NCBI GenBank assembly: GCA_028282325.1
Contig: JANQID010000047.1
Coordinates: 1-49,211 of the forward strand
Direction: 5' to 3'
Source of the DNA: Chloroflexaceae bacterium
GTDB taxonomy: Bacteria > Chloroflexota > Chloroflexia > Chloroflexales > Chloroflexaceae
Length of the DNA stretch: 49,211 nucleotides
The first letter of the stretch is position 1, and each line of letters opens with the position of its first letter. The notes under the pieces are model-generated. The model ran no database searches. It was not told the DNA's origin and saw nothing but the letters and a program-made list of their open reading frames with translations. Below, one piece after another: positions 31,269-43,821 of this stretch. The position numbers and the translations under genes are program-made.

Positions 31269-31970
31269 CTATGCGATCAGCTTGAGCGCCTGGGCTTTCA
31301 GGACAGCCTGGGTTCGGTCGCGCACATCAAGCTTGGCCAGCAAGTTCGAGACGTGGTTTTTGACCGTGCCTTCGGTGATCACCAGTTGGCGGGCGATTTC
31401 GCGATTCGACAACCCCGCCGCAAGCGAGCGCAACACCTCGTATTCACGCTCGCTCAGCGGGTCATCGAGCGGCTGGAGATCGGGATCCGCCGACGATTCG
31501 GCGTGGTGCGAAGCATGCGGGCGCGGGCCGCCCGCGGCGAGGCGTGAAAATTCGGCGACGACCTTGCGGGCGATGCTGGGCTGGATCAGCGCCTCGCCCA
31601 CCGCTACGGCGCGCACCGCCGCCGCGATGTCATCGCTGCTCACATCCTTCAGCATATAACCCCTGGCCCCGGCTTTTAGCCCCTCGAACACATATTCGTC
31701 GTTGTCGAACGTGGTGAGAATGATCACGCCGGTGTCCGGGAAGCGCTTGGTCAAGATCCGCGTCGCTTCGACGCCATCCATCTCCGGCATGCGCACATCC
31801 ATCAGCACGACATCCGGCATATGGCGTTCAACGGCCTCGATAGCTTCGCGGCCGTTGGCCGCTGCGCCGACCACCTGCATATCCGGTTCGAGATCGAGCA
31901 ATATCTGAATTCCTTGGCGAACCAGGTTCTGGTCATCAACCAGGACAATGCGTATCATCGCGTTCGTCAT
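31269..31970 (-). CDS. NarL/LuxR-family response regulator
   Basis: A 233-residue regulator. The receiver domain has VDDQ acidic residues near 11-13, phosphoacceptor Asp58 in VVLMDVRMPEMDG and the conserved Lys in GYMLKDVS. A linker containing HASHHAESSADPD joins a C-terminal LuxR-type HTH: LSEREYEVLRSLAAGLSNRE and GTVKNHVSNLLAKLDVRDRT. Its ATG overlaps the kinase stop in ATGA, so kinase and regulator are translated together. It would bind DNA when phosphorylated by that kinase. The membrane protein gene following on the same strand is a plausible target. Confidence 0.93.
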   Translation of the reverse strand: MTNAMIRIVLVDDQNLVRQGIQILLDLEPDMQVVGAAANGREAIEAVERHMPDVVLMDVRMPEMDGVEATRILTKRFPDTGVIILTTFDNDEYVFEGLKAGARGYMLKDVSSDDIAAAVRAVAVGEALIQPSIARKVVAEFSRLAAGGPRPHASHHAESSADPDLQPLDDPLSEREYEVLRSLAAGLSNREIARQLVITEGTVKNHVSNLLAKLDVRDRTQAVLKAQALKLIA

Positions 31971-33271
31971 AGAGTAATTCCTTGCGCAGCGTGCGCCGTC
32001 GCCACAGGAAGCGTGATCGCGAGCCGAAACCCGCCCTCCGGTCGCGGACCTGCCGTAAATGCGCCGCCGAGTTGCTCGGCGCGTTCGCGAAGCCCAGCCA
32101 GCCCAAAGCCGTCGCCCGGCGTCGCGCGTTCGCCGATGCCATCGTCTTCAACGCTCAGTTGCACGGTGTCGGGCGTAAACGTAACCCGGATCGTCACCTG
32201 CCGAGCGGCGGCGTATTTGCGCGCGTTGGTCAGACCCTCCTGCGCCGCACGGTAGATCGTCGTCGCCGCAGCCGGCGCAAGCGGCGAAATATCGCCGTGA
32301 ATGTCGCAATGCGCTTCCGGCGCGCCGCTCTGGTTGAAATCGCGCACCAGCGCGTGCAACGCCGCGTCCAGCGACCGCCCATCGAGGGGCGACTGACGCA
32401 TCGAAGCTACGCTGCGCCGCACCTCGCTGAGAGCCGCGTGGGCTTGCTCGCGACACAGCGCGATCGTCGGGGCGACCCGCGCCGGATCGCGGTCGAGCAG
32501 TCGCTCGGCTGCCTGCAATTGAATGTGCAGCGCCGTCAGATGGTGCCCCAGGCCATCGTGAATATCGCGCGCCAGCCGCAGGCGCTCCTCGACCGCAGCC
32601 AGATTGCGTTCGCGTTCGCGCGCGATCTCAAGCTCGGCGTTGGCGACACGCAAACGCTCAGCTAACGCTTCGGCGCGCCGGGTCTGCTCGCTGAAACGCG
32701 CGAGCGTCAGCGACAGCGTGATCGTGAAAACCAGGCCAATCCCGATGCTTGGCGCGCTTTCCAGCGCCTCCGGGAGAGAATACCCGCGCAGCCAGAACAG
32801 CGCAAACCAACCGCCGGTCAGCGCCGCAGTAACCAGCGCGGCATTCAGCAAACGCAGCATCAAGAAGGCCTGCGAAGCCAGAATGAAGAGCAAGAAAGGC
32901 AAGAATGTAAAGCCCCTGCCGAGACCGGCCCAGTTGACCAACAGGAAGATCGCGCCGTTGGCGGCGAAATGCACGCCGGCAGCGATCTGGGACCCAATGC
33001 GCGCTTCAATGTCGGCGAGCACAACGTTCAGCGTGAACATCGTCGCCAGACCGGTCACCACCGTGTAGAAACGCCACGCCGGCATATCGTGATGGTTGAT
33101 CACGAATGAGATCAGCGCCGCCAGGATGACCGTATACGCAGCGATCATCAGCGTGCCCTCGCCTTGCGGCAGGAGGCGCCCCCGCAGCCAATGCGTGACT
33201 TGCGCTACCCGGTCGGAGGAACGCGACAGGTCGCCCGACACGCTGTTCAACTGGTCTTCACCGCTTTGCAT
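31967..33271 (-). CDS. NarL-type sensor histidine kinase (HisKA_3)
   Basis: A 434-residue membrane sensor kinase. Residues 45-200 hold six membrane helices in pairs (TLMIAAYTVILAALISFVIN, GAIFLLVNWAGLGRG and others) with no large external domain, so it likely senses something in or at the membrane. A coiled coil follows (AEALAERLRVANAELEIARE). RLRLARDIHDGLGHHLTAL has the phosphoacceptor His. The ATPase has AAQEGLTNARKYA (N box), VEDDGIGE (G1) and GFGLAGLRERAEQLGG (G2). The ATG at 33271 lies six bases after an extended -10 element, suggesting a leaderless mRNA. The long upstream extension from 33406 crosses the mutS promoter and was rejected. Confidence 0.93.
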   Translation of the reverse strand: MQSGEDQLNSVSGDLSRSSDRVAQVTHWLRGRLLPQGEGTLMIAAYTVILAALISFVINHHDMPAWRFYTVVTGLATMFTLNVVLADIEARIGSQIAAGVHFAANGAIFLLVNWAGLGRGFTFLPFLLFILASQAFLMLRLLNAALVTAALTGGWFALFWLRGYSLPEALESAPSIGIGLVFTITLSLTLARFSEQTRRAEALAERLRVANAELEIARERERNLAAVEERLRLARDIHDGLGHHLTALHIQLQAAERLLDRDPARVAPTIALCREQAHAALSEVRRSVASMRQSPLDGRSLDAALHALVRDFNQSGAPEAHCDIHGDISPLAPAAATTIYRAAQEGLTNARKYAAARQVTIRVTFTPDTVQLSVEDDGIGERATPGDGFGLAGLRERAEQLGGAFTAGPRPEGGFRLAITLPVATAHAAQGITL

Positions 33272-33277
33272 ACGGGT

Positions 33278-33286
33278 ATTATAACA
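33278..33286 (-). promoter_or_regulatory. Extended -10 promoter of the histidine kinase operon
   Basis: On the minus strand TGT-TATAAT is a perfect extended -10. Six bases (acccgt) separate it from the kinase ATG, placing the expected +1 on the start codon. No ribosome site is present between them. Confidence 0.6.
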
Positions 33287-33337
33287 GCCGCCGACAAGAC
33301 GGCGACGATCATACTTCCCGAAAAACATGACCATCTG

Positions 33338-33346
33338 TGCTATAAT
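33338..33346 (+). promoter_or_regulatory. Extended -10 promoter of mutS
   Basis: TGC-TATAAT is a perfect TGN-extended -10 on the plus strand, giving a leader of about 47 bases before the mutS ATG. It is divergent from, and about 55 bases away from, the histidine kinase promoter. Confidence 0.6.
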
Positions 33347-33399
33347 ACCCGCCAATACCCGCGAGACGAAACGCAGCACACAGGACGGAGCGCGACACG

Positions 33400-36300
33400 A
33401 TGGCAAAAGTCGAGCTGCATAATTGGTATCGGCAATACCGCACGCTCAAAGATCAACACCCCGACGCAATCCTCTTTTTTCGCTTCGGCGACTTCTACGA
33501 AACGTTTGACGACGACGCCAAGCTGATCGCCGAACTGCTCGATGTCACGCTCACCCGCAAAGACTACGCCATCGACCGCTCGAAGCCTAAGGATCAGCAG
33601 AAGCTCTTTTCACCGATGGCTGGCATGCCCTATCACGCAGTTGAAAGCTACGTAGCGCGCCTGGTCGGCCAGGGCTACCGCGTCGCCATCGCCGAACAGC
33701 TCAGCGAAACCGAATCCAGTCGCGGCGACACCCGCCCGCGCTCGGTGTTCGCCGCCGGGCTAGAGCAGAGCGAGCGCCAGCGGGGTATGGTGCATCGCGA
33801 AGTGGTGCGCATCGTGACGCCCGGCACGCTAGTCGATCCGGCATTGCTGCCCGCCGCCGCTAACAACTACCTCGCCGCCGTCATCGCCGAGCAGGATCGC
33901 ATCGGCCTAGCCTACGCCGACCTGAGCACCGGCGAATTTGCGGCGGTCGAATTCGGCGACGAGCGTGCCGCCGCACGGTTGGAGGGCGAGCTGAGCCGCC
34001 TGAATGTCGCCGAGACGCTGGTCCCCGATGACGACGCCTTGCGCCTGCCCGGCCTGACTCCGGCGACCGCCGGGTTGACGCAAGATCTCGCGCCGCTGAC
34101 GAAAGATGAGCGCGATGTCCTGCTGCCCCACGAACGCATCGCTCGCCGCGTGGATGGCACAAATAACGCGCGCTGGACCCGCGGCCATATCACCGCGCTG
34201 CCCGTCTGGCGGTGGGATCTGGCCACGGCGCACGAGACGCTGCTACGCCAGTTGCGTGTGGGCGTGCTGTCCGGGTTTGGGCTGGATGATAAACCCCTAG
34301 CGACGCGGGCGGCTGGCGCGTTGTTGCAGTACGTCCACGAGACCCAGCGCCACGACGCCGCCCACATCACCACGATCCGCGTCTATACGACCGGCGCGTT
34401 TATGTTTCTCGACCCGCAAACGCGCCGCAACCTGGAGATCCTGGAGAGCAGCGGCGGCAAAAGCAAGGGCACGCTGGTCCACGTACTCGATCGCACTCGC
34501 ACGCCGATGGGAGCACGACTGTTGCGCGCCTGGCTCACCCAGCCGCTGCTCGATCTGCACGCGCTGCACGCGCGCCAGGAAGCCGTCGCGCGTTGCGTAG
34601 ACGACGCCTTGATGCGCGCGGAACTGCGCCAGGCGCTCGGCGCGATCGGCGATATGGAACGCGCGGTCAACCGCATCGCCCAGGGGCCGACCACGGCGCT
34701 ACCGCGCGACCTGGCCCAACTGCGCCAGTCGTTGCGCGCGCTGCCCGCCGTGATTGCCAGCGCCGGCGCCGTCAGCGCGACATTGCTGGACGAGGGCGCG
34801 CCGGACGTTGCACCCACAACGGCGACCGATACCGACACACCCGGCGCCGATGATGACGATGAGTTGTTCGGCGAGCCCGCCGCCGCGCCGGAGCCCGCAC
34901 AGCGCGACGAACCGCAATCGCCAGCGCCGGTCGCCGCAATGCTGGATAACTGCGCCGACGTATGTGCGCTGCTCGAACAGGCGCTCGACGACGATCCGCC
35001 GGCGCTGCTGGGCGCATCGAACTATTTGCGCTGCGAGGACGGCGGCGAACGCCCACGGCGAATGATTCGCCCCGGCTACGACGCCCAGATGGACACGCTG
35101 GTCAAAGCCAACCGCGACGCGCAAAGCTTCATCGACGGCCTGGAAGCCCGCGAGCGCGCCAGCACGGGCATCAAATCGCTCAAAGTCGATTACAACAAGG
35201 TCTTCGGTTACTACATCGAGATTTCGCGCAACTACGCCGACCAGGCGCCGCCGCACTACGAACGCAAACAGACCCTCGTCGCCGCCGAGCGTTATATCAC
35301 CGCCGAGTTGAAAGAGTACGAGAGCATCGTGCTCAACGCCCAGCAGCGTTTGATTGAACTGGAGCGCGAGGCGTTTCGGCGCATCTGCGAAGCCGTGGCA
35401 GCTCACACCGAGCGGCTGCGCGCAACCGCACGCGGGCTGGCGCGCATCGATGCAATCGCCGCGCTGGCCGAGACGGCGGTACGCGAACGTTATACCCGCC
35501 CCACGCTCGACACAGGCACGCATCTGCGCATTCGCGGCGGACGCCACCCGGTGGTCGAGCAAGCGCTTGACGAAGCGTTCGTGCCTAATGACATCGACCT
35601 CGACGCCGAGCAACAGCAATTGCTGATCATCACTGGGCCAAATATGGCCGGGAAATCCACGGTGTTACGTCAAGTTGCATTGATCGTCCTGCTGGCCCAG
35701 ATCGGCGCATTTGTTCCCGCCGACGAAGCGCAGATCGGCCTGGTCGATCGCATTTTCACCCGCATCGGCGCGCAGGACGACATCGCCACCGGTCAGAGCA
35801 CGTTTATGGTCGAGATGACCGAGACGGCGGCGTTGCTCTCGCAGAGCACACGGCGCAGCCTGATCATTCTCGATGAAGTGGGGCGCGGTACCAGCACCTA
35901 CGACGGCATGGCCATCGCCCGCGCCGTTGTCGAGTATATCCACAACGAGCCGCGCTTGCAGTGTCGCACGCTCTTCGCGACCCACTACCACGAACTGACC
36001 GCCCTGGATACGCTCTTGCCGCGCGTCCGCAACTACCATATGGCTGCGGTCGAACAAGACGGCCACGTGGTTTTTCTGCACGAACTGCGTCCCGGCGGGG
36101 CCGATCGTTCCTATGGCATCCACGTCGCCGAACTGGCCGGCATACCGCGTCCGGTCATTCGCCGCGCCGGCGAGCTGCTGGCCGAGCTAGAAAACCGTGA
36201 ACCGAGATCGACGAGCAGCCCCACGCCCGACCGCGAAACCAAAACGCTGGCCAGCGCCGAACGCACGCCGCCCGGCGTCGGGCAACTCTCGCTGTTTGAC

Positions 36301-38165: not shown

Positions 38166-39653
38166 TCAGCGCGGAATCAACGGCGAGGACACCGGCAACT
38201 CGGTCGGCGTCGGTGCGACAGTCGACGTGGCGGAAGGCGTCGAGGGTACAGGCGACGGCGCAGCAGTCGGCGCAGGTTCAGACTCAGGCGCCGCAGGCGT
38301 TGAAGCTGGCCAGACCATCAGGCTGCGCACATTATCGACGAACGAAACTGCACCGCTGCGATCCAGCGCATAGATCCCACCGCCGCTTACGCCCAGCGCC
38401 AGAACAATCGCCGCCGCCCAGACCGTCCAGCGCGGAATGCGCCGCGACAACTGCGGTTTGCCGAGCGAAGACAACGGCTCAATCGGCCTGGTATAGTACG
38501 ACTCTTGGAATTCGCGCAACAGGCTATCGGCGTCTAAGCCCAGGTAATTCGCGTACGAACGCAGCATTTGCGCCGCAAGCGGGCCGCGCGGCAGCAGCGT
38601 GAACTTCTCATCCTCCATAGCCTGGAGATAATACATGCGGATCTTGCTCTCGTTCTCGACCTGCACCAACGTCAGACGCCGGCGGCGACGTTCGGCGCGC
38701 AGCATAGCACCCAGTGTCGTCTCGTCGTCGCCCAGAATATCTTCCGCCTTATCATCCGACACAGACGTCGTATCACCACCCATCCGCAGCAGAGCAGCCT
38801 CCTCGGCCTCGGTCATAAAAACCGACTCTTCGTCGGTCGTCTTCTTGGGCAAAGGCCGCTTGCGCTCGGCGGTGACAGGTCCTTCCGGCAGTGATGAGGT
38901 GACAAACGAGTGGTCAGTCTCTTTGACAACATGGACATCTGGCGATAAATCAAAATCCGGCGACGTCGCAGCAGGTTCAGCCATCTCTTCATCTGTCGCT
39001 CGCGTCGTAATCGTTCGTTCACGCTCCGAGAGAATGGCTTGATCCAGCAGCGGCGAAACGCCCAGCAGCGAATCAGTCTCCGCGTCGTTCGGTTTGCGCG
39101 CAGCCGGATGCGCGCCGGTAGAAGGCTGCTTTTTGGCTTTGCCACGCCGAGTACGTCTGGACGATTGCGCGGCGTCGGCGGGTGCGACGGCAGCGCCTGG
39201 CGAGGTCTTCGGCGCAGTTTTATCAGCCAAAGTCGCAGGAGCCGAAGTTGTATCAGCCGAAGTCGCAGGAGCTGAAGTTGTCGCATGCCGATCGTTCCGT
39301 TCGGAAGCCCGCAGGCATACGCGAACACGAGCCAGCAGCTCAGCCGAACGATACGGCTTGGCAATATAGTCGATTGCGCCGGCCTCCAGACCTCGCACAA
39401 TATCTTCTTCTCGGCTCAACGAACTCAGGACAATCGTCGTCGTCTGGTGTGCACTCCACTCAAGCAATGCCCAACCCGCGTCGTTATCGGCATGAACTTC
39501 CAACAACATCAGATCGGGATGCTCCTCAATGAGGATCCGCTTCCCGTACGCAAGCGTGCTTGCTTTACGCACGCGATAGCCAGCCTCTTCAAGCTGCGCG
39601 CCCAGGCCGGAGAGAAATATTACATCATCGTCGACGATGAGAATGGTTGCCAA
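38166..39653 (-). CDS. Receiver domain fused to a RodZ-like HTH membrane protein
   Basis: A 495-residue fusion. Residues 1-120 form a CheY-like receiver (MATILIVDDDVIF, TTTIVLSSL, IDYIAKPYRSAELL with Lys99). The phosphoacceptor position is Glu52 (LMLLEVHAD) instead of Asp. A disordered Ala/Thr/Pro-rich linker with tandem TSAPAT-type repeats follows (120-310). About 320-390 is a RodZ-type HTH_25 (LGAMLRAERRRRRLTLVQVE, KFTLLPRGPLAAQMLRSYAN). A membrane helix near 425 (WTVWAAAIVLALGVSGGGIY) and a Pro/Thr-rich outer tail end the protein. RodZ links MreB to the wall machinery. The start is TTG, with AAGGAG six bases before it. No kinase partner is adjacent. Confidence 0.88.
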   Translation of the reverse strand: MATILIVDDDVIFLSGLGAQLEEAGYRVRKASTLAYGKRILIEEHPDLMLLEVHADNDAGWALLEWSAHQTTTIVLSSLSREEDIVRGLEAGAIDYIAKPYRSAELLARVRVCLRASERNDRHATTSAPATSADTTSAPATLADKTAPKTSPGAAVAPADAAQSSRRTRRGKAKKQPSTGAHPAARKPNDAETDSLLGVSPLLDQAILSERERTITTRATDEEMAEPAATSPDFDLSPDVHVVKETDHSFVTSSLPEGPVTAERKRPLPKKTTDEESVFMTEAEEAALLRMGGDTTSVSDDKAEDILGDDETTLGAMLRAERRRRRLTLVQVENESKIRMYYLQAMEDEKFTLLPRGPLAAQMLRSYANYLGLDADSLLREFQESYYTRPIEPLSSLGKPQLSRRIPRWTVWAAAIVLALGVSGGGIYALDRSGAVSFVDNVRSLMVWPASTPAAPESEPAPTAAPSPVPSTPSATSTVAPTPTELPVSSPLIPR

Positions 39654-39838
39654 TAACGTCTCCTTCCATATCCACAGCCCTGGATTGGCTTCTCATACTC
39701 AGATGGCATATGGGATCCCATCAACAACGCTTTGCGAGAATCGGATCAGCGCCCTGAGCAGCGCAAAGCGCGTATCGAAAGGAGCCTGCGTTCATCTAAC
39801 ATCTGGAAGCTAACGCGACCCTGGACGGCAAATGTGCT

Positions 39839-40028: not shown

Positions 40029-42038
40029 TTGGATACGGTTTACGATGTGTTGGTTATCGGCGCCGGGCATGCTGGCTGCGAAGCTGCGCACGCGGCGGCG
40101 CGAATGGGATGTTCGACATTGTTGCTGACGATCGATCTGGATAAGATCGCGCATATGTCGTGCAATCCCAGCATCGGCGGCCCGGCCAAAGGTCACCTGG
40201 TGCGTGAGATCGACGCCTTGGGCGGGTTGATCGGACGGATCATCGATGCCAGCTTCATTCAGATCCGGATGCTGAATGAAAGCAAAGGTCCGGCGGTTCA
40301 GTCGCTACGGGCTCAGGCCGATAAGCGGCTCTACTCGCAGTTAATGAAAGAGACCCTTGAGTCGACGCCGAATTTAGAGATCCGCCAGGCGATGGTCGAG
40401 CGCATCATACCGCTGACGCCAGACACCGGGCCGGCCCAACCGGCGCGCTTTGCGGCGTTGACCAACACCGGCTGGCGTTATTATGCCCGTACGCTCGTGT
40501 TGACAACCGGCACCTTTTTGCGCGGGCGTGCGATCACCGGCAACTCGGCCTGGGGCGCCGGACGCGCGGGCGAGGCGCCGGCGGTCGCCCTGGGCGAAGA
40601 TCTGGCAGCGCTTGGGTTCCCGCTAGTGCGCCTCAAAACCGGCACCCCGCCGCGCATTCACGCCCGCAGCATCGATTTCAGCCAGACCGACATCCAGCTC
40701 GGCAGATCGACGCCGATGTACTTCGGGCACTACTATGGCGAAGAGCGCCCGGATGCAAACCTGGCAACCCGCGACACGCCGCCGCCGTCGCCGTTTCATC
40801 GCTCGCCCGCCTCAACCTATCCCGCCCCGATGCTGGACGCCTGGCGACCGCAATTGCCTTGCTATCTGATCCACACGACGCCGCGCTTCCACGAACTGAT
40901 CCGCAACAACCTGGATCGCGCCCCGTTGTTTAGCGGCGAAATCGAAGGCGTCGGGCCACGCTACTGTCCAAGCATCGAAGACAAGATCGTGCGCTTCGCC
41001 GACAAAGACCGCCACGGCCTGTTTCTGGAACCGGAAGGATGGAGCACCCAGGAGGTCTATGTGCAAGGGTGCAATACGTCCTTGCCGGAGGATGTGCAGT
41101 GGGAGATGTTGCGTAGCATACCCGCGCTGCGCAACGTTGAATTGATGCGCATCGGTTATGCCATCGAGTATGATGCTATCGCGACTGGCGAGGTCGGCGC
41201 GGATATGGGCGCACGGCGTATGGCAGGGTTGTATCTCGCCGGACAGGTGAACGGCACAACCGGCTATGAAGAAGCGGCGGCACAGGGGATGATGGCCGGG
41301 ATCAACGCCGCGCGGTTTGCACACGATCAACAGCCGATCATCCTGCGCCGCGACGAGGCCTACATCGGCGTTCTCATCGACGATCTGGTGACGAAAGAGA
41401 TTCACGAGCCGTATCGTATGTTTACCAGCCGCGCCGAGTACCGGCTACTGCTGCGCGGCGACAACGCCGACCTGCGACTGACGCCCCTGGCCCGCCAGCT
41501 CGGACTGGTAGACGACACGCGCACGGCGGCGGTCGAACACAAACGCGACCAGAGTGAGCAACTGCGCGAAATGTTGAGCCGACGCAAAGTCTATCCCACA
41601 GCAGCGATGATCGCCCGACTCGCCGCCATTGACATTGAACCGTTCGGCAACCCGACAACCGCCGAGGCGCTACTGAGTCGGCGCAATGTCGGCTATCGCA
41701 AGCTCCAGGCGCTGCTCGATCTACCCGACGCGCCCGACGCAGTTGTTGAGCAAGTCGAAGTCACCGCCAAATACGGCGGCTATATCGATCGCCAACAGCG
41801 TGAAGTGGAACGCTTGCGCAAAATGGAGAGTCGCCGTCTCCCGCCCGATTTCGATTACGGCGCGATCCAGGGGCTGCGCAATGAGGCCCGGCAGGTGCTG
41901 GAGCGCTTTCGCCCGGCGACGCTCGGTCAGGCTGGGCGCCTGGCCGGAATCAACCCGGCGGATGTCGCGATCATTTTGTTCGCGCTTGAACGGCAGAACG
42001 GACGCCAGCGCGACCCGGTCGATTATGGCCTGAAATAA
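40029..42038 (+). CDS. mnmG: tRNA uridine-5-carboxymethylaminomethyl modification enzyme MnmG (GidA)
   Basis: A 669-residue FAD enzyme that, with MnmE, modifies U34 in the anticodon of several tRNAs. DVLVIGAGHAGCEAAHAAAR is the FAD-binding fold. MSCNPSIGGPAKGHLVREID carries the first active Cys. VQGCNTSLPEDVQ holds the second conserved Cys, and EPYRMFTSRAEYRLLLRGDN and YGGYIDRQQREVERL are C-terminal hallmarks. The start is TTG at 40029 with GGAGG nine bases upstream; no better ATG exists because MDTVYDVLVIG begins exactly at the expected N-terminus. MnmE is not in the window. Expected length is about 620-660, so it is complete. Confidence 0.96.
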   Translation: MDTVYDVLVIGAGHAGCEAAHAAARMGCSTLLLTIDLDKIAHMSCNPSIGGPAKGHLVREIDALGGLIGRIIDASFIQIRMLNESKGPAVQSLRAQADKRLYSQLMKETLESTPNLEIRQAMVERIIPLTPDTGPAQPARFAALTNTGWRYYARTLVLTTGTFLRGRAITGNSAWGAGRAGEAPAVALGEDLAALGFPLVRLKTGTPPRIHARSIDFSQTDIQLGRSTPMYFGHYYGEERPDANLATRDTPPPSPFHRSPASTYPAPMLDAWRPQLPCYLIHTTPRFHELIRNNLDRAPLFSGEIEGVGPRYCPSIEDKIVRFADKDRHGLFLEPEGWSTQEVYVQGCNTSLPEDVQWEMLRSIPALRNVELMRIGYAIEYDAIATGEVGADMGARRMAGLYLAGQVNGTTGYEEAAAQGMMAGINAARFAHDQQPIILRRDEAYIGVLIDDLVTKEIHEPYRMFTSRAEYRLLLRGDNADLRLTPLARQLGLVDDTRTAAVEHKRDQSEQLREMLSRRKVYPTAAMIARLAAIDIEPFGNPTTAEALLSRRNVGYRKLQALLDLPDAPDAVVEQVEVTAKYGGYIDRQQREVERLRKMESRRLPPDFDYGAIQGLRNEARQVLERFRPATLGQAGRLAGINPADVAIILFALERQNGRQRDPVDYGLK

Positions 42039-43459
42039 CGATCATACTCCGCACCCCAGTACGCCGCGAGTTTCTCGCCATCGATCAGCACCTCAACTTC
42101 GGCGATCGGGTGAGCGCCTTTGCCATCGGTAATCGACGTCAGCGATAACACCAGTGTATCCAGGGCGGCTTCGGGGTTCGCGGCGGTGGTGAAATCGGCG
42201 GACAGATCGACCGTTGCCCGACCATCGTTAACGTCAATGTCGTTCAACGTCGTGGCCGCCGGAATCGGTCGGGACAACACGCTGCCATACGATCCCGGAC
42301 CGGCCAGCAGCTCTTCCACGGTGCGCCGCGCGACAGAAGCGGTAGGCTCAACAATGCGCGTAATCCGCACATAGTGAGCATCGTTGAGCGGAAAGTACAA
42401 CAAAAGGAATCGGTTGCCGCTGCTGAAGCTCTCGTCCAACCCTTGCGGATTATCGGCGTTCAACACCGGGCGAACGATTGGCCCGCTGATCGGTTGTCCG
42501 TTCACCCGAATGTACACTTGCGACACCGTGGCGAATTCGGTGAGGGTCAGCGCCAACGCTTTGATGCTGAGATCGTTGCTCAACACCTCAGGCGAACGAT
42601 CAAAGTTCACGGTGAGTTCCTGATTGCCGGTAAGCTCGACGCTCAACACGTTTGCATTGTCCCGTATTGAATGCCGCAAACCCGCCGGCGGATCGGCCAG
42701 CAACTCGCGTACGGCTGCGGCGGCGACTTTCTTATTCTCAACCAGCGCGACGCGCTCGACGGGCACCAGCAATATGCCGCCGGGATCGGCAAAGTAGAGT
42801 GTGAGCCGCTGCTGTGATACAGAAACAGCGGTCGGTGTGGCGCTCGGCGGAATGGGCGTGGCACTTGGCGGAGCGGATGTGGATGTGGCGCTCGGTGGAG
42901 CCGACGTTGCACTTGGCTCCGTGGTAGCGCTCGCCGTCGACGATTGCGTCAGCGTCACCTCTGATTCTGGGGAGAGCGTCACACCTGGCGAAGGCGTCAG
43001 CGTGTCGGACGGAAGGATCGCAGAGCTGGTGGAGGAGGGCGACAAGGTCGGCGTCGACAACGAGGCTGAAGGCGCCCCCGGCGTGGGCGTTGGCGGAACA
43101 GGCGACGCAGTTGCGATAGACGTGAGGGCGGGCGAGGATGTTAATCCTGCATCCGGCGTGAGCGTCGATGTTACAAGGGGGATGTCTGTCGCCGGAGCAG
43201 TTGTACTCTCAACGACGACAACCGCAGAAACGCTCGGTATCTCGGTTGGTTCGCTGCCGGCCATCATTCCTTCGGCCAGCAACTGCACACCGGCAAACGC
43301 ATAGATGCCGACGATAACCGCCAGGAGTCCCAGCAATACGCCATAGATCACCCGATCACGCGGCGGCAAACTGGCCAGCCAACCACGCAAGCCGCTTTGA
43401 GGCAAGGCAGCTTGTGATTGTCCAGATGTCGCTCCCATTGAAGGTAAACTCAAACCCAT
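42023..43459 (-). CDS. Membrane-anchored double-GerMN protein with mucin-like linker
   Basis: A 478-residue protein. The N-terminus is cytoplasmic, with one membrane helix near 34-55 (VIYGVLLGLLAVIVGIYAFAG). A low-complexity Ser/Thr/Pro-rich stalk of about 150 residues follows (STPTLSPSSTSSAILPSD, PPSATSTSAPPSATPIPPS). Two GerMN domains end the protein: LTLYFADPGGILLVPVERV to VYIRVNGQPI, and LLLYFPLNDAHYVRITRIV to EVLIDGEKLAAYW. GerMN domains occur in spore germination GerM and in mycobacterial LpqB, generally as envelope-associated domains. Its 3' end overlaps mnmG by 16 bases on the opposite strand. ATG at 43459 was chosen; the ATG at 43438 is possible and the long extension to 43633 was rejected. 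Confidence 0.82.
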   Translation of the reverse strand: MGLSLPSMGATSGQSQAALPQSGLRGWLASLPPRDRVIYGVLLGLLAVIVGIYAFAGVQLLAEGMMAGSEPTEIPSVSAVVVVESTTAPATDIPLVTSTLTPDAGLTSSPALTSIATASPVPPTPTPGAPSASLSTPTLSPSSTSSAILPSDTLTPSPGVTLSPESEVTLTQSSTASATTEPSATSAPPSATSTSAPPSATPIPPSATPTAVSVSQQRLTLYFADPGGILLVPVERVALVENKKVAAAAVRELLADPPAGLRHSIRDNANVLSVELTGNQELTVNFDRSPEVLSNDLSIKALALTLTEFATVSQVYIRVNGQPISGPIVRPVLNADNPQGLDESFSSGNRFLLLYFPLNDAHYVRITRIVEPTASVARRTVEELLAGPGSYGSVLSRPIPAATTLNDIDVNDGRATVDLSADFTTAANPEAALDTLVLSLTSITDGKGAHPIAEVEVLIDGEKLAAYWGAEYDRYFRP

Positions 43460-43821
43460 GTATAATGGGCAGTTGATGTGTCCTGGAGATAGACAATGCG
43501 TGCTCTGATCCACCGGAATGTCCTGAGCTTCGCCGGTAACATAGCAGCGATGCTCAGGCGTTGGCGAATCAAAACGAATGGCGCGGTTTTGCTTCAAGCC
43601 AAGGTGTGGACAGTCTCCCGATGGTTCAACCATAGTGATCGCAGGACTCCTGAGACAAATGAGATGGAGCGAACGAAGAGTATTATAGGCGCCGGGTTCG
43701 CCTCCGTCAATGTGTATATTATGTAAACATTATCACCGGATGTTTGGTTGGATACCTGACATACATTATGCGCGTCCAACAATCTGGTGGCTAAGCCTCC
43801 GACTATCGAAAGTTAATACAT

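Follow-up and report, generated by a model that had tools for sequence, protein, structure and literature searches.

Aspartate-less receivers carry Glu more often than any other residue in place of the phosphoacceptor (26%), and Asn, Ser, Ala and Gly together account in general for roughly half of such substitutions (PMC4395418). Pseudo-receivers are marked by loss of the Pro at D+4 and by fewer Ala or Gly residues at T+1, and a 2025 review describes as a mystery how the bacterial ones are switched (PMC12632262). Glu is a partial phosphomimic for many response regulators (PMC12632262), and ChxR, a natural Glu receiver, remains active after its Glu is replaced (PMC4395418). Hybrid transmembrane regulators bearing a Response_reg domain also form a known class that is common in Chloroflexota (PMC10269533). 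RodZ consists of an HTH_25 domain, a membrane helix and RodZ_C; E. coli RodZ requires F60 and Y64 for MreB (PMC4047632, PMC6946637), the F60A change lowering the MreB interaction and aromatic mutants of chlamydial RodZ losing it (PMC6946637, PMC4047632), and the E. coli HTH does not bind DNA (PMC6946637). In the open literature library searched, no paper on a receiver-RodZ fusion was found. Glu-bearing aspartate-less receivers and Response_reg membrane regulators are already known, and the receiver-RodZ-type fusion described here is a novel variant.

The fusion gene lies in the window, by which we mean the whole stretch of 49,211 nucleotides from a Chloroflexaceae bacterium that was analysed. 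The minus-strand open reading frame at 38166-39653 and its product of 495 residues were confirmed from the frame and its translation, and a receiver, a RodZ-type HTH and a membrane helix were found on this one chain by Pfam, AlphaFold modelling (AF2) and hydropathy, as the original prediction had it. The gene starts with TTG, and the L(TTG)ATIL start is common to many orthologues.

38166..39653, minus strand: whole gene, 495 aa, in the order receiver, linker, HTH_25, membrane helix and Pro/Thr tail (open reading frame, Pfam, 71 intact orthologues)
39660..39665, minus strand: Shine-Dalgarno-like AAGGAG, six bases 5' of the TTG start
39303..39647, minus strand: receiver domain, aa 3-117 (PF00072; AF2 pLDDT 93-98)
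38523..38705, minus strand: RodZ-type HTH_25 domain, aa 317-377 (PF13413 and PDB profile matches)
38364..38432, minus strand: membrane helix, aa 408-430, N-side positive (AF2 helix and hydropathy)
38169..38315, minus strand: Pro/Thr/Ser-rich tail, presumed extracytoplasmic (sequence; topology from charge)

Both Pfam matches lie above the curated cut-offs (Response_reg, E = 1.7e-16, aa 4-111; HTH_25, E = 1.3e-16, aa 317-377). In Foldseek searches the receiver of the AlphaFold model matched CheY-like and OmpR-type receivers with a target TM of about 0.9, and among its closest folds was VbrR D51E, an engineered phosphomimic receiver. The single membrane helix follows the HTH and is flanked by charges of +3 on its N side and 0 on its C side; a hydrophobic helix is present in 71/71 orthologues, and the tail differs in length among them. 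The pTM was low for both the window protein (0.38) and a Chloroflexus orthologue (0.42), and contacts between domains are not readable from these models.

A whole-genome search of 80 relatives gave a match in 73, and reading of the matched loci left 71 intact orthologues with the receiver and HTH_25 in one frame. Since all 71 retain the architecture in full, the joining of these domains is more than chance. Named members come from Chloroflexus, Candidatus Chloroploca, Candidatus Viridilinea, Oscillochloris, Roseiflexus-assigned MAGs and Herpetosiphon. A profile of the HTH and membrane helix gave strong matches in all four Chloroflexales families and only a weak RodZ-like match in other orders of the class, and long RodZ-like frames from another order of the class had no receiver. 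With the full-length profile, receiver-plus-HTH matches across the phylum were confined to Chloroflexales. A scan of one genome per species (84,980 species) found 47 intact fusions, all on Chloroflexales-type contigs, one of them oddly titled; the matches in Chlamydiae, Alcanivorax and Anaerolineaceae in that scan had no receiver. Almost every searched genome of the filamentous Chloroflexales has the family, which, at the sensitivity used, was not found elsewhere. The search across Chloroflexota that had been proposed therefore succeeded within this order and failed outside it, where matches were receiver-only or HTH-only, and a wider spread in the phylum or beyond was ruled out at that sensitivity. 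Contigs titled Gracilibacteria and Thermoflexus hugenholtzii (L181 and L221) bear members of the family, the frame on L181 being split, and these record titles look wrong because both contigs hold Chloroflexales family members. In Oscillochloris sp. ZM17-4, the HTH-membrane helix half (L065:7743-8186) and the receiver half (G032:C95:97927-98394), which fits the profile of the family, are separated by about 156 kb on a single scaffold; either the gene is genuinely split or the assembly is at fault.

The receiver carries the following residues of interest.

39498..39500, minus strand: Glu52, phosphoacceptor position, codon GAA, closing strand beta3 in the AlphaFold model
39471..39476, minus strand: Gly60-Trp61 (D+8 and D+9), invariant, with Gly in 71/71 and Trp in 71/71 of the family
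39423..39425, minus strand: Ser77, the switch Thr/Ser, which is Ser in 68 and Thr in 2 of 71
39357..39359, minus strand: Lys99, kept in 69/71 orthologues

The acidic pocket consists of D8, D9 and D10, and both Ser77 and Lys99 occupy canonical positions. Since the AlphaFold model ends beta3 (48-52) at Glu52 and beta4 (72-77) at Ser77 and places Lys99 just past beta5 (95-98), the assignment of these three residues is structurally right and a misaligned site 52 is ruled out. Sequence and model thus bear out the predicted Glu at position 52 beside a VDDD-type acidic pocket and Lys99. Site 52 is Glu in 45 of the 71 intact orthologues and Asp in the other 26, and never Asn, Ser, Ala, Gly or any other residue. 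By family group, the Glu/Asp counts are 32/3 (f1), 5/1 (f2), 3/6 (f3) and 5/16 (f4). A tree inferred with that column removed requires at least 8 changes at the site, and the Asp members of genomes G028, G019 and G011 are each placed alone among Glu relatives. Glu is therefore neither fixed nor strain-specific: the 26 Asp members and the repeated changes dispose of the first alternative raised for the orthologue alignment, and the presence of Glu in 45 orthologues rules out the second, as it does a sequencing error. A two-state likelihood model favoured a Glu ancestor (0.96, flat prior) and a faster change from Glu to Asp than the reverse, although the long outgroup branch makes the rooting on which this ancestral Glu depends uncertain. 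Site 52 and the second pocket acid changed 8 times each on the tree, D8, K99 and S77 one to three times, and G60, W61, G92 and P100 not at all.

The 96 other receiver stretches of the window's genome provide a standard for comparison, with Asp at the phosphoacceptor in 92, Glu in 3 and Ser in 1. Pro at D+4, in the beta3-alpha3 loop, is present in 91/96 of these and in 0/71 of the family, including 0/26 of the Asp members, which are thereby ruled out as otherwise canonical receivers; Trp at D+9 is found in 71/71 of the family versus 4/96. The three other receivers with a phosphoacceptor Glu (L279, L301 and L300 on contigs 123, 77 and 17) all keep the D+4 Pro, unlike the fusion family. With neither a phosphoacceptor Asp nor a D+4 Pro, the window protein is not a canonical response regulator, and 45/71 members are pseudo-receivers in the sense of a receiver fold without that Asp, which the other 26 retain. 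Since the D+4 Pro is absent from every member, those with Asp included, and the Trp is invariant, the whole family looks like a pseudo-receiver family for which the acidic charge alone counts. Like ChxR, RitR, FrzS, ShkA, plant PRRs and Rim15p, it has a receiver fold with a replaced phosphoacceptor and a lost D+4 Pro, but it differs from ChxR-type pseudo-receivers in swapping Glu and Asp repeatedly with no third residue, and in having HTH_25 and a membrane helix as effector. The repeated swaps around a constant pocket suggest that the receiver works without the usual phosphate switch, and in our reading the family would have departed early from phosphate control, the acidic residue being retained for structure or charge.

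We propose, with moderate confidence, that the fusion is a hybrid regulator or adaptor held at the membrane and specific to Chloroflexales, whose pseudo-receiver serves for docking or self-association. The receiver would fold and keep its acidic pocket, switch Ser and Lys, but no dedicated phosphorelay would drive it. The side chain at the former phosphoacceptor would give only a permanent negative charge, for which Glu or Asp suffices, and we propose that the two interchange in evolution because either supplies it. The receiver is then most likely a docking or self-association module. More tentatively, the family may represent an order-wide, phosphate-free and membrane-tethered receiver module on a RodZ-derived scaffold, with a natural D/E exchange series that, if this is true, would reveal whether charge rather than phosphate is read by the module.

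The original prediction envisaged that Glu52 mimics phospho-Asp and locks the domain in an active-like state or, failing that, that the domain responds to something other than phosphorylation. Of these, independence from phosphorylation gains from the loss of the D+4 Pro throughout the family. The phosphomimic explanation, in which Glu52 contacts Ser77 and Lys99 as phospho-Asp would, the receiver is held in the active, dimeric state and the Asp lineages have regained control by phosphorylation, appears unlikely. It draws on the retention of Ser77 and Lys99 in all but a few members, on the likeness to VbrR D51E, on the partial mimicry by Glu in many response regulators (PMC12632262) and on the partly kept alpha4-beta5-alpha5 face (R87 in 63/71, E105 in 68/71 and R109 in 62 of 63, with D95 also kept). 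Within the fusion family, however, the position that pairs with PhoB R91 is V/I and not Arg, and the Asp members share the other departures of the Glu members, namely the missing D+4 Pro and the invariant Trp. The activity of ChxR despite a change of its Glu (PMC4395418) also argues against locked-on mimicry. Since close orthologues differing in Asp or Glu occur in Chloroflexus, Herpetosiphon, Oscillochloris, Candidatus Chloroploca and Roseiflexus-assigned genomes, this natural series makes the phosphomimic hypothesis directly testable.

A RodZ-like match for the HTH had been sought and was found. Besides the Pfam match, its profile hits PDB entries 3FYM (4.4e-9), 4GQM (CT009, 8.6e-9) and 2WUS (MreB-RodZ, 8.5e-6), the best PDB matches being RodZ-type. 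The positions that correspond to the MreB contacts of E. coli RodZ are located as follows.

38553..38567, minus strand: MreB-contact pair, Met363 at the E. coli F60 position and Tyr367 at the Y64 position

The first position is M/I/L/V in 71/71 fusions and the second Tyr in 69/71, versus mostly F/Y at the first and Y at the second in RodZ proteins from other lineages and in the genome's own canonical RodZ. The latter (contig 104, L039:7705-8526) has the F and Y contacts and a RodZ_C match of 2.4e-11, and RodZ_C (PF13464) was absent by Pfam from the window protein and two orthologues. The fusion resembles RodZ in its homologous HTH_25, the juxtamembrane stretch and the one membrane helix that follows, but it adds an N-terminal receiver and a long linker so that its HTH is not N-terminal. 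Since a separate RodZ with F-Y and RodZ_C is encoded in the genome, and the fusion lacks the first of these aromatics and RodZ_C, the fusion is a paralogue that descends from RodZ without being the RodZ of the organism; its RodZ part is genuinely homologous to RodZ yet distinct from it, and the fusion probably lacks RodZ's role. The earlier suggestion of cell-shape or wall control is weakened for the same reasons. That the fusion is a RodZ variant carrying the receiver's signal to MreB and wall synthesis is improbable, as mutants of the RodZ aromatics weaken or lose the MreB interaction (PMC6946637, PMC4047632), even though the topology of HTH_25 and single membrane helix is that of RodZ and two strong MreB homologues are encoded in the genome. 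Since the RodZ-type HTH has here been reused alongside a true RodZ, an HTH_25-membrane helix annotation alone is no warrant for 'cell shape'.

Returning to the membrane regulator or adaptor that we favour, its HTH_25 would be derived from RodZ with part of the MreB contact lost, and because of that loss its putative output is likelier to lie in binding DNA or in contacting a new protein than in the MreB elongation machine. The Tyr retained at the second MreB position speaks against this, and for DNA binding so does the HTH of E. coli RodZ, which does not bind DNA (PMC6946637). With its Response_reg, HTH and membrane helix in one protein the fusion resembles the hybrid transmembrane transcription regulators, from which it differs in that its HTH, a putative DNA binder, is RodZ-type; neither RodZ nor HTH_25 appears in the main text describing that class (PMC10269533). 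The HTH_25-membrane helix part would tether the receiver to the membrane, and the flexible linker would offer a short conserved helix to a partner.

38784..38828, minus strand: conserved linker motif ESVFMTEAEEAALLR, aa 276-290 (column conservation), with a short helix predicted at 282-291

The consensus of this motif is [E/D]-x-V-F-M/I-x3-E-E-x2-L-L-R, and the remainder of the linker is unconserved. The helix has a pLDDT of about 81 in the window protein and is also predicted in the Chloroflexus orthologue; some Roseiflexaceae have a degenerate form of the motif, and Herpetosiphonaceae lack it. As to gene context, the only stable neighbour in 29 f1 loci is a divergent mnmG, and the f4 genes lie some near mnmE and others near PucC/DUF3623 genes. 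Neither a conserved histidine kinase neighbour nor a kinase in a conserved operon was found in the f1 and f4 loci, and the fusion gene is an orphan by context; orphan regulators are normal in this genome since about 96 other receivers are present. The conserved linker helix and the orphan context fit a phosphorylation-independent, membrane-anchored regulator or adaptor.

An ordinary membrane-bound response regulator, driven by a histidine kinase through its Asp and with lost or changed input in the Glu lineages, is a doubtful alternative: it accords with the Asp in 26/71, the kept pocket residues and a short paralogue with a canonical receiver in the same genome, but Glu prevails in the family and is probably the older of the two states, the D+4 Pro is missing throughout and no kinase neighbour is conserved. 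The 26 Asp orthologues may remain substrates of an unlinked kinase, because they keep the Asp, the acidic pocket, the Ser and the Lys. The short paralogue, a second REC(Asp)-HTH_25-TM protein of 276 aa (L038:6806-7633, contig 127), shares with the fusion family the domain order and the GW at D+8/D+9, and differs in its canonical phospho-Asp, its Pro at D+4, a short linker and the lack of a tail. It has relatives in G046 (L113), G019 (L114) and G017 (L112, frame-broken), of which L113 and L114 fall outside the fusion family on the tree with full support.

Elsewhere in the window, a HisKA_3 histidine kinase at 31269-33406 (minus strand) adjoins a response regulator. Together they make up a full two-component pair at this locus, some 5 kb away from the fusion gene, and are not conserved with it. 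Beyond mnmG, 42023-43633 (minus strand) encodes a large Ser/Thr/Pro-rich membrane protein with two Germane (GerMN, spore germination) stretches. In a Roseiflexaceae MAG group (L099:6364-7143 and L103:4957-6387), the photosynthesis genes DUF3623 (PuhE-like) and PucC have the fusion gene directly downstream, and these fusions have the most degenerate receiver of the whole family.
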